The notes beneath the pieces are model-generated. The model searched no databases. It saw only the letters and a list, made by a program, of their open reading frames with translations, and was not told where the DNA came from. Of a stretch of 33,919 bases of DNA, positions 29,286 to 32,352 are shown piece by piece (positions within the stretch are counted from its first letter, which is position 1; each line of letters starts with the position of its first letter). The DNA is from Caldifarciminota bacterium (lineage in GTDB: Bacteria; Hydrothermota; Hydrothermia; B15-G9). A program made the translations under genes and the position numbers. The stretch spans positions 1-33,919 of the forward strand of contig WGAI01000049.1 in the NCBI GenBank assembly GCA_015489175.1. Direction: 5' to 3'.

Positions 29286-29376
29286 AGGCATTGAGGCTTT
29301 ACATGCAGAATATGTCCTATTTCTTTGGCCGATGTGAGTTGTGGCTTTATCTTTATTTCTCAAAACGGAGGTTAAA

Positions 29377-30324
29377 ATGGGAGCTTTGATGCTGATCTTT
29401 GCCGTTATGGCTGCCGACACTCAAGACACTGCGAGGATCGCTGAGCTTTTCAGGTCGGCTTCAAAATGGCGGGTCGGAGAAGCCATCGGCGAGGTCGATT
29501 CCGCGAGAAAAGAGCTCATCGGCATGGGGAAAATTGCGCTCGACTACATCTTTTCACAGAAGATGGCCACAACGAGCACGCTTGAGTATCGAGCCATCAA
29601 AAGCGTGGTTAAGGGGCTGCGTCAGGATGCAAAGCTGTACATTCAGAACTGCCTGCGATCGGACAACGACACGGTGCTTGTGAACTGCCTACGGCTGATA
29701 GGTGACATCAAGGATACCGCTTTCGGCGGAGATGTGGAGCGGTTTCTGGATGAGAGTTACAGCGGTCGTGTCAGGCGAACGGCCGCCTTTGCGCTCGGTC
29801 GGCTCAAGTATCGCGATGCGTTCCCGAGACTCGCGAGGTGTGTCCACGACACATCGTTTCGCATGAGGCTTGTTGCCGTTCCAGCTGCCGCTGAGACAGG
29901 TGGGAAGGACGCTGTGCCGCTCCTCACAGATGTTGCGTTGAACGATGAGTTTTTCCTGATAAGGATGGAGGCCGCTCACGCGCTTGCAAAATCGGCACCT
30001 GACGATGGGCTGAAGGCCGCACTCGATGCCATCGACACGACCCATGACCACGATGCAAGAGTCAGGTCGCTCCAGATGGTGGATGTGTTTCTGCGGAAAA
30101 ACCGCTATGGCGGAGCCTTGTTGAGGCGTGCCAGACACATCCTCATTGAGCTTTCAAACGATGATGACCCCGTAGTTCGGGGTTATGCAGTTCGGGCACT
30201 CGGTAACATCATGGACGGGAATGTGAGGACAGCGCTTTCGGTTATGCTGGCCGGTGAAGAAAACCTCTTTGTCGTATCGCAACTTGAAGAAGCGCTTGCG
30301 GATAGCTGTGACAGCAAACGGTGA
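29377..30324 (+). CDS. HEAT-repeat protein, probably exported
   Basis: 315-residue protein made of about six to eight helical HEAT-like (PBS-lyase type) repeats, for example FLDESYSGRVRRTAAFALGRLKYRDAFPRLARC, DTSFRMRLVAVPAAAETGGKDAVPLLTDVAL, DEFFLIRMEAAHALAKSAPDDGLKAALD and DDDPVVRGYAVRALGNIMDGN. Such repeats are protein-binding scaffolds. The start MGALMLIFAVMAADTQ looks like a short signal peptide with a cleavage near AMA or AAD, so it may act in the periplasm. I chose the ATG at 29377 because GGAGG is 6 bases upstream; the frame extends 12 codons further without a ribosome site. It is divergent from degT. Partner and role unknown. Confidence 0.82.
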   Translation: MGALMLIFAVMAADTQDTARIAELFRSASKWRVGEAIGEVDSARKELIGMGKIALDYIFSQKMATTSTLEYRAIKSVVKGLRQDAKLYIQNCLRSDNDTVLVNCLRLIGDIKDTAFGGDVERFLDESYSGRVRRTAAFALGRLKYRDAFPRLARCVHDTSFRMRLVAVPAAAETGGKDAVPLLTDVALNDEFFLIRMEAAHALAKSAPDDGLKAALDAIDTTHDHDARVRSLQMVDVFLRKNRYGGALLRRARHILIELSNDDDPVVRGYAVRALGNIMDGNVRTALSVMLAGEENLFVVSQLEEALADSCDSKR

Positions 30325-30673
30325 TCGTGACATTGATATGCCATCATTAAAATGACCATTGAAATTTTAACCCTTCACCCCTCATTTTCTAATTTACGAC
30401 ATCCCAAATCTCCTAATAAGCGTAACAGCTCTCTAAGCTGGTTTCGGGATTTGCTCATTCGGACAGCTATTTATGGTACGATTCACATTCTGGCAATCAT
30501 GAAAGATCGTGAGATAAATTTTTTTATCCTGGCATTGGTTTCCCTCGGAGAACATGCCTGTTATCTCTTTTTGAAAATACACCGATCTTACAGAGCCAAA
30601 TGGGATTGTTCAAATCCCGACCGACAACGGCAATTCGTGAAAGACTATCCATTTTATAACATCCGATTATGAC
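30325..30673. other. AT-rich intergenic stretch, no confident gene
   Basis: About 350 bases after the HEAT-repeat gene. A 106-codon plus-strand frame (30352-30672) crosses it but has no ribosome site and no family resemblance, so I do not call it. Confidence 0.4.
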
Positions 30674-30702
30674 TTGACACGGGTAGGATGAAAGCGTGGA
30701 AT
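30674..30702 (+). promoter_or_regulatory. Promoter of a candidate small RNA
   Basis: Perfect TTGACA (30674-30679), 17-base spacer, TGGAAT (30697-30702, 4 of 6). Transcription would begin near 30709 and there is no open reading frame downstream before the terminator at 30771. Confidence 0.5.
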
Positions 30703-30708
30703 TTCGGG

Positions 30709-30805
30709 AGTACCAAGAAGTTAGCGATAAACCACTGAAATACAATTAAATAGTGAGAAATCCCTTAAAGCGGGGAACGGTGAGAATATCGTTCCCTGTT
30801 TTTTT
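30709..30805 (+). ncRNA. Candidate intergenic small RNA, about 95 nt
   Basis: Bounded by a TTGACA promoter and a strong intrinsic terminator. Within it CACT (30732-30735) can pair with AGTG (30752-30755) to form one hairpin before the terminator stem. It contains no open frame of meaningful length. No known RNA family is recognised. The alternative is a short untranslated remnant of a former gene. Confidence 0.4.
30771..30805 (+). terminator. Intrinsic terminator of the candidate small RNA
   Basis: CGGGGAACG (30771-30779) pairs with CGTTCCCTG (30790-30798), 9 bp including one G-T, across a 10-base loop, followed by seven Ts. Confidence 0.85.
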
Positions 30806-30887
30806 GTCCGGATTGCCCAAGAGAGTGATGCTCAAACCCCGGTGAATTTAGCGGTGAAATTTTCAGGCTATTAATAAAACTTAAGTG

Positions 30888-30933
30888 ACGGAAATCGTTC
30901 CTTGCCCAATCACGGAATATCGTTTGTCCCAAT
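30888..30933. repeat. Two imperfect tandem direct repeats
   Basis: Units 30888-30910 and 30912-30933 share ACGGAA, ATCGTT and CCCAAT in order. They are flanked on both sides by ACTTAA (30879-30884 and 30935-30940). A related AATATCGTTCCC core also lies in the small RNA terminator (30786-30796). They lie between two operons and could be protein binding sites. Confidence 0.5.
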
Positions 30934-30972
30934 GACTTAACTGTCCCATGATTTAGACATGTTCGACTTAAA

Positions 30973-30989
30973 CCCTTCTATCGGAAGGG
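30973..30989 (-). terminator. Weak hairpin after the M20 peptidase gene
   Basis: CCCTTC/GAAGGG 6-bp stem with a 5-base loop, followed on the minus strand by TTTAAG. The T run is short, so termination may be partial. Confidence 0.4.
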
Positions 30990-31011
30990 GGCTATTCGAG
31001 GGCAAAATGGC

Positions 31012-32352
31012 TCAACTCACAAATCGGCTCACAGACTCCCAGAGGACGCTCGTGGCAAACCTTAAATTCTCGATGGATACCCGTTCGTCAACGCCATGAA
31101 TTAGTTTCAAAATCGGCAGTTCCGGCTTCTGAATGTGTGGGATAAAGCCATAGACCTTAACGCCTTTAGGAACGACGAAGCGGCCATCTGTTACGCCTGC
31201 CACCATCATGGGCACCAGAACAGCATTGGCGTAATGCTCTTTGAGCACCTGGTTAAACACCTCAAACAACGGACTTTTATAGTCTATCTGGTATCCCTGA
31301 CTGGATTTGACCAGTTCGATCTCGATGTCATCACCGACAATCCTGCGGACTTCTCGGATGAAATTATCAGGGGTTTGACCGGGCAGTATTCGCCCATCGA
31401 TGGTAGCTTCTGCGGTGGCAGGGATAACATTTTCTTTCTGGCCGGCTCTGAGCATTGTAGGAGTGGCTGTGTTCCTCTGGATGGCATAAAGCAGAGCTGC
31501 AAGCGTAACCTGTCCCGATTTCTTCAAAAACTTCAGACCGAAATTGGTCTTAAGCAGGATATTGGCAAGCCATGTGGGATATGGCGAAAGGCGGGCGAGT
31601 TCATCGATAAATCTTTCGGCAGCTTCAACTTTATGGCGAGGCAGATGTGAAGAACCGAGCTTTGCGACAGCGCGACTCAGCTCTACTACCGCATTTTTAC
31701 CCGTCGGTGCACTCCCATGTCCAGGATTGCCTCTGGCTTTGAGGGTGAGCCATGCAATTCCTTTTTCAGCAATTTGACATGTGAATACCAGGCGGTCGCC
31801 CATGGCAATACCTACACCACCGCCCTCATTTATCGCGTATTCCGCTTTGATCATGTCCCAGTGATTATCGACAAGCCATTTCATGCCGTAAGTTGAGCCC
31901 ATCTCCTCGTCAGCGGTGGCGGCGAATACGACATCTCGCTTGAGTTTCAGACCTCTGCGCTTAAGTTCGAGCATGATAACCATCTCAATTGCGGTCATAT
32001 CCTTCATGTCGAGCGCGCCTCTCCCCCAGACAAAGCCATCGGCTATCTCGCCGCTGAAAGGATGATGCGTCCATTCGTCTGGATTTGCTGGAACGACATC
32101 CGTATGCGACATCAGAAGGATTGGACCAGCATCGTCCGCCCCACTTTTGAGCCTTGCGACCACATTCGCCCGTTTGGGCGCCGATTTAAGTATTGTGGCA
32201 TCAATGCCTTCATCGGCGAAAACATCGTGGATGTATTCCGCAGCTGGCAGTTCATTCCCCGGCGGATTTGATGTGTCTATCCTGATCAGGGCCTGCAGGT
32301 GTTTGACAACCTCATCTGTCAACCTGTCAAGCTCTTCTTTTGTCAAAGGCAT
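31012..32352 (-). CDS. M20 family metallopeptidase / deacylase
   Basis: Cytosolic di-zinc hydrolase of the ArgE/DapE/carboxypeptidase Ss1 group. First metal ligand H83 with D85 in LLMSHTDVVP, bridging D115 in WGRGALDMKDMTAIE, general base E149 with E150 in ATADEEMGS, and a further Glu in EYAINEGGG near 175; the dimerisation domain begins near LTLKARGNPGHGSAPTGKNAV. Length 446 aa. It resembles broad-specificity aminoacylase or dipeptidase enzymes more than DapE, but substrate cannot be fixed. AGGAGG lies 8 bases before the ATG. It stands alone; the next gene upstream is the CARF gene on the same strand, 327 bases away. Confidence 0.93.
   Translation of the reverse strand: MPLTKEELDRLTDEVVKHLQALIRIDTSNPPGNELPAAEYIHDVFADEGIDATILKSAPKRANVVARLKSGADDAGPILLMSHTDVVPANPDEWTHHPFSGEIADGFVWGRGALDMKDMTAIEMVIMLELKRRGLKLKRDVVFAATADEEMGSTYGMKWLVDNHWDMIKAEYAINEGGGVGIAMGDRLVFTCQIAEKGIAWLTLKARGNPGHGSAPTGKNAVVELSRAVAKLGSSHLPRHKVEAAERFIDELARLSPYPTWLANILLKTNFGLKFLKKSGQVTLAALLYAIQRNTATPTMLRAGQKENVIPATAEATIDGRILPGQTPDNFIREVRRIVGDDIEIELVKSSQGYQIDYKSPLFEVFNQVLKEHYANAVLVPMMVAGVTDGRFVVPKGVKVYGFIPHIQKPELPILKLIHGVDERVSIENLRFATSVLWESVSRFVS

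Follow-up and report, generated by a model that had tools for sequence, protein, structure and literature searches.

Does the gap between two convergent genes in this genome, a 2.06-Mb assembly of 77 contigs (G000), harbor a short RNA gene of its own? The window analyzed is one whole contig of it (C49, 33,919 nt). A preliminary description of this DNA had proposed such a gene from a promoter sequence followed by a hairpin with a T run, the features collected in Table 1. Of 38 convergent gaps sampled in the source genome, none is larger; the HEAT-repeat gene upstream of the gap is a possible source of read-through transcription. Among named genomes, a scan with the HEAT-repeat gene found one relative, a MAG of candidate division WOR-3, and a scan with the M20 gene confirmed none. 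No tRNA or tmRNA genes were found in the window, and since blastn searches of phage and plasmid collections (E up to 0.01) gave no match to the gap, its origin from either was rejected. As an own-genome baseline we used the window and 18 further stretches (263,575 nt), in total 297,494 nt of the 2.06 Mb. There, a simple longest-frame rule served to call genes in place of a gene finder; tRNA searches covered all 18 stretches, and Rfam searches covered seven of them.

Table 1. Features of the convergent gap and its flanks (window positions)
Feature	Position	Strand	Basis or remark
HEAT-repeat protein gene	29341..30324	+	Pfam HEAT_2, E 1e-27; ortholog in G001 89% identical; upstream of gap
Gap between convergent genes, 687 nt	30325..31011	.	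Left edge is a breakpoint relative to G001
Degenerate copy of dispersed ~110-nt repeat	30342..30440	+	Just inside left gap edge
106-aa open frame, probably not a gene	30352..30672	+	Ends one base short of the -35-like hexamer
-35-like hexamer TTGACA, 6/6	30674..30679	+	Direct reading
-10-like hexamer TGGAAT, 4/6, no A at position 2	30697..30702	+	Direct reading; spacer 17 nt
Candidate short RNA, ~95 nt	30709..30805	+	Start inferred from -10 position
Intrinsic terminator: long stem, 4-nt loop, seven Ts	30767..30805	+	RNAfold and own hairpin scan
M20-family peptidase gene	31012..32352	-	Pfam Peptidase_M20, E 1.8e-30; convergent, far side of gap

Terminator and promoter-like site

Sequence statistics support a plus-strand intrinsic terminator, which is the sole statistically solid part of the candidate. 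The segment 30767-30806 folds at -20.6 kcal/mol (z -5.73), with none of 200 shuffles equally stable. Instead of the 9-bp stem described earlier, the minimum-energy structure has 16 pairs, some of them made with the T run, around a 4-nt loop; the seven Ts that had been reported after the stem are there (30799-30805, read directly), and both the pairing and the T run are intact. The distance of about 70 bases given between promoter and stem holds for the G+C-rich core, while the full stem begins 64 nt past the -10 hexamer. The opposite strand of the same DNA folds more weakly (-10.5 kcal/mol) and lacks a long run of Ts behind the stem; the element is thus, by appearance, a terminator of the plus strand, although what it ends is unclear. 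In our own scan it is the only plus-strand terminator of the gap, whereas the stem is absent from the output of a standard terminator scan, by whose written rule it should apparently qualify.

Terminator-like hairpins with a score of at least 20 are concentrated between genes: the intergenic sequence, 42,308 nt in all, contains 27, whereas the 255,186 nt within called genes contain four. The strands are counted separately, and three hairpins enter the 27 on both of them. Four runs of simulated intergenic sequence yielded 0, 0, 0, and 1 such hairpins; these were first-order Markov sequences, as in our frame and promoter simulations, and intergenic pieces of up to 60 nt were excluded from the simulation but kept in the observed count. 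Fold stability and the enrichment of this class between genes both count in favor of a short transcription unit. Fifteen of the 27 terminators lie 5-47 nt past the end of a same-strand gene and one more lies at 112 nt; the candidate, 444 nt beyond the HEAT-repeat gene, is among the 11 with no known same-strand gene end within 150 nt. Compared with the usual distance, these 444 nt indicate that the terminator may end something other than the HEAT-repeat mRNA. The same 11 cases show, however, that an orphan terminator is not rare, which counts against the short RNA.

The promoter pair is present as had been described, TTGACA and TGGAAT with a 17-nt spacer, but to call it a consensus promoter was an overstatement, as the -10 hexamer matches at four positions of six and lacks the A at position 2. 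The standard promoter scan requires this A and therefore did not list the pair; that neither the promoter nor the terminator was listed by the standard scans is a further point against the short RNA. A plus-strand site with at least as many matches (10/12) occurred by chance in 17.8% of simulated 687-nt gaps (n=3000) and in 4.7% of simulated 200-nt stretches. Among 5000 gap-like simulated 150-nt stretches, 156 (~3%) contained an equally good site, as did 69 (1.4%) of 5000 windows of this length drawn at random from the genome sample, and these low chances of such a site before a given terminator count for the short RNA. In the 102 upstream regions of the baseline there are 19 sites with 10/12 or better, whereas the simulations average 3.5, and the source genome thus seems to use sigma-70-type promoters; the same regions in antisense contain 11, however, and the enrichment over antisense is therefore only modest. 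The -10 hexamer has both the A at position 2 and the final T at position 6 in 16 of the 19 upstream sites, whereas the candidate has no such A, which argues against the short RNA. A 10/12 site lies within 150 nt upstream of four of the 27 terminators, the candidate included. Overall, the promoter-like site is weak and near chance level, and we consider it suggestive, not established.

Two other hairpins of the baseline are also preceded by promoter-like sequences. At L061:9789-9814 (minus strand), a terminator-like hairpin, preceded by a 10/12 promoter-like site, is separated by 31 nt from the called start of the same-strand 388-aa gene that follows it and is possibly a leader attenuator; no Rfam match was found at this hairpin. 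At L068:11185-11207 (plus strand), a terminator-like hairpin is located 162 nt past a gene and before the next same-strand gene, with TTGACA-containing promoter-like sites upstream.

The predicted RNA and its conservation

Were the promoter-like site active, a weak sigma-70-type promoter would let RNA polymerase initiate near 30709, and transcription would halt at the terminator, yielding a plus-strand RNA of ~95 nt with the terminator hairpin as its only stable element. The segment 30700-30806 as a whole has a z of -3.02; the part before the stem has z from -0.03 to +0.47, and the 64 nt preceding the stem (+0.47) are no better than shuffles, so that the value of the whole is owed to the terminator. 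Hence, of the stable ~95-nt RNA proposed earlier, the terminator holds firmly, whereas the promoter is near chance level and the body is unstructured; this absence of structure beyond the terminator counts against a short RNA. The proposal that no known family accounts for the segment agrees with the Rfam search, in which nothing in the window reached the gathering threshold. A permissive search returned three matches, to U11 and to two lncRNA families. One of the three, to ZFAT-AS1_1, covers 30708-30788 on the strand of the candidate (15.5 bits versus a threshold of 80, E 1.2); all three lie far under the Rfam threshold and were rejected as chance.

A lack of conservation in close relatives had been named beforehand as grounds for refuting the proposal, and such a lack was observed in the genomes searched, which included just two others of the same genus. 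At the DNA level, the segment 30670-30812 was found in none of 39 other genomes, and the whole gap matched one of 59, solely at 30342-30392. The covariance search that had been proposed, with a model built from one sequence only, that of the window, entered in duplicate, covered 40 other genomes; at E up to 1 it yielded five matches, spread over four of these genomes, none of them credible (best E 0.036). The match in G019 shares GGGAGTACCAA by eye, yet it lies antisense inside an 813-aa frame. In G011 the match covers the end of a frame, the following gap, and the called start of the next frame, and in G007 there are two matches with identical alignments, one of which overlaps a 70-aa frame at its end, together with the next called start. 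Matches in G011, G024, and G007 center on the terminator hairpin. All were rejected as homologs; the three whose surroundings were read are gene ends with terminators or antisense within a frame. In G002, which has a diverged C-terminal fragment of the M20 gene, the sequence beyond the fragment does not match the gap, and the contig of G003 stops within the M20 gene; consequently, synteny could be checked in few relatives. The missing conservation counts against the short RNA, but it is not decisive against a young, lineage-specific one.

What the terminator may end

Our best reading of the locus is a lineage-specific non-coding transcript with a real terminator, either the ~95-nt RNA or a long 3' end of the HEAT-repeat mRNA. 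We tentatively put first a separate short non-coding transcription unit starting near 30709, with somewhat less than even confidence, and its RNA may equally be a by-product transcript with no role.

That the terminator ends the HEAT-repeat mRNA, with a 3' untranslated stretch of ~440 nt and a promoter-like site that is there by chance, is a serious, if doubtful, possibility, and one that takes account of how the gap arose. In the nearest relative, which is of the same genus (G001), DNA homology to the window stops exactly at the HEAT stop codon (30324/30325), and a permease-like gene follows on the same strand 58 nt past the HEAT-repeat gene; the ortholog of this permease in the source genome, 99% identical, is located on another contig (C1:34803-35603). 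The left edge of the gap is therefore a rearrangement breakpoint or, possibly, the result of a misassembly in one genome of the pair, and either of the two may be the derived one. A rearrangement and the repeat copy directly after the HEAT-repeat gene would then have separated the gene end from its stop signal, in agreement with the exact end of homology, the near-chance promoter, and the lack of any other plus-strand terminator in the gap. The distance, however, is atypical beside the 15 of 27 terminators at no more than 47 nt, and with the same-strand permease so close, no such terminator is seen after the HEAT-repeat gene of G001.

The repeat copy belongs to a dispersed, degenerate family of ~110 nt in the genus, with further copies at G000:C67:20991-21080 and G001:C116:8279-8408, the latter at a contig end. 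The window copy shares 83% identity with that of G001 across 52 nt, or 70% when 112 nt are compared; the G001 copy matches that on C67 at 84% (E 2.1e-22), and the window copy matches C67 directly at 76% over 50 nt. A weak additional copy, consisting of two short matches, was detected at G000:C54:17762-17842.

Less likely than the HEAT-repeat mRNA or a separate short RNA is a relic, that is, a promoter-like site and a terminator left from the state before the rearrangement, with no meaningful transcript today. The size of the gap, the breakpoint at its edge, the degenerate repeat within it, and the failure to find conservation (of the gap in 59 and the segment in 39 other genomes) would all fit such remains, which we nevertheless regard as unlikely, as the terminator has kept its pairing and T run intact.

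The claim that no open frame lies between the two signals is true of the plus strand with one exception, a 30-aa GTG frame beginning at 30753, the only plus-strand frame of at least 20 aa overlapping 30709-30805, and a 73-aa minus-strand frame extends across to 30745. The 106-aa and 73-aa frames have codon scores of -0.365 and -0.389 bits per codon, respectively, both lower than the 1st percentile, -0.126, among 563 chunks read in the true frame of real genes; they therefore look non-coding, which counts for the short RNA. No Pfam match was found for either frame. At E up to 1, the 106-aa protein has only weak matches, in nine of the 59 other genomes searched, and the best of these (E 0.002) is part of a 340-aa frame; in addition, window positions 30559-30600 match L041 of G050 over 42 nt (76%, E 0.009 in a small set, L041 having been chosen by its similarity to this frame). 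On codon usage and the lack of relatives the frame was rejected as a gene, and an mRNA for a small protein of 106 aa is quite improbable as the transcript that the terminator ends: the end of the frame 94 nt ahead of the stem, hydrophobic stretches seen by eye in the translation, and the occurrence of a frame of at least this length in just 141 of 2000 simulated gaps speak for it, whereas a non-coding codon score (even if codon usage might deviate in an acquired gene), the absence of a Pfam match, and the want of any solid relative speak against it.

Comparison with known systems

Genes of intergenic trans-acting sRNAs in bacteria have a sigma-70 promoter and a Rho-independent terminator, and orphan promoter-terminator pairs are common predictions. 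If the ~95-nt RNA is functional, it would most likely act like these sRNAs, its unstructured 5' 60 nt pairing with target mRNAs. The fuller proposal, a recently arisen, species-specific regulatory RNA of candidate division WOR-3, born in a rearrangement gap and acting by base pairing, is improbable in our estimate. A narrow literature test found no paper on a small RNA with a terminator in WOR-3; the locus, if transcribed, would be a candidate small RNA of an uncultured phylum, although alone it tells little, as the conservation that would point to a role was not found in the genomes searched.

The candidate resembles the trans-acting sRNA genes in its size, its own terminator, its apparently non-coding sequence, and its intergenic location, and differs from them in having a weak promoter, no conservation found, and no known target, being a prediction from sequence. 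Its hairpin, in turn, has the stem, short loop, and T run of the other intergenic intrinsic terminators of the source genome, and is set apart from them by its position, 444 nt past the nearest same-strand gene end, versus 5-47 nt in 15 of the 27.
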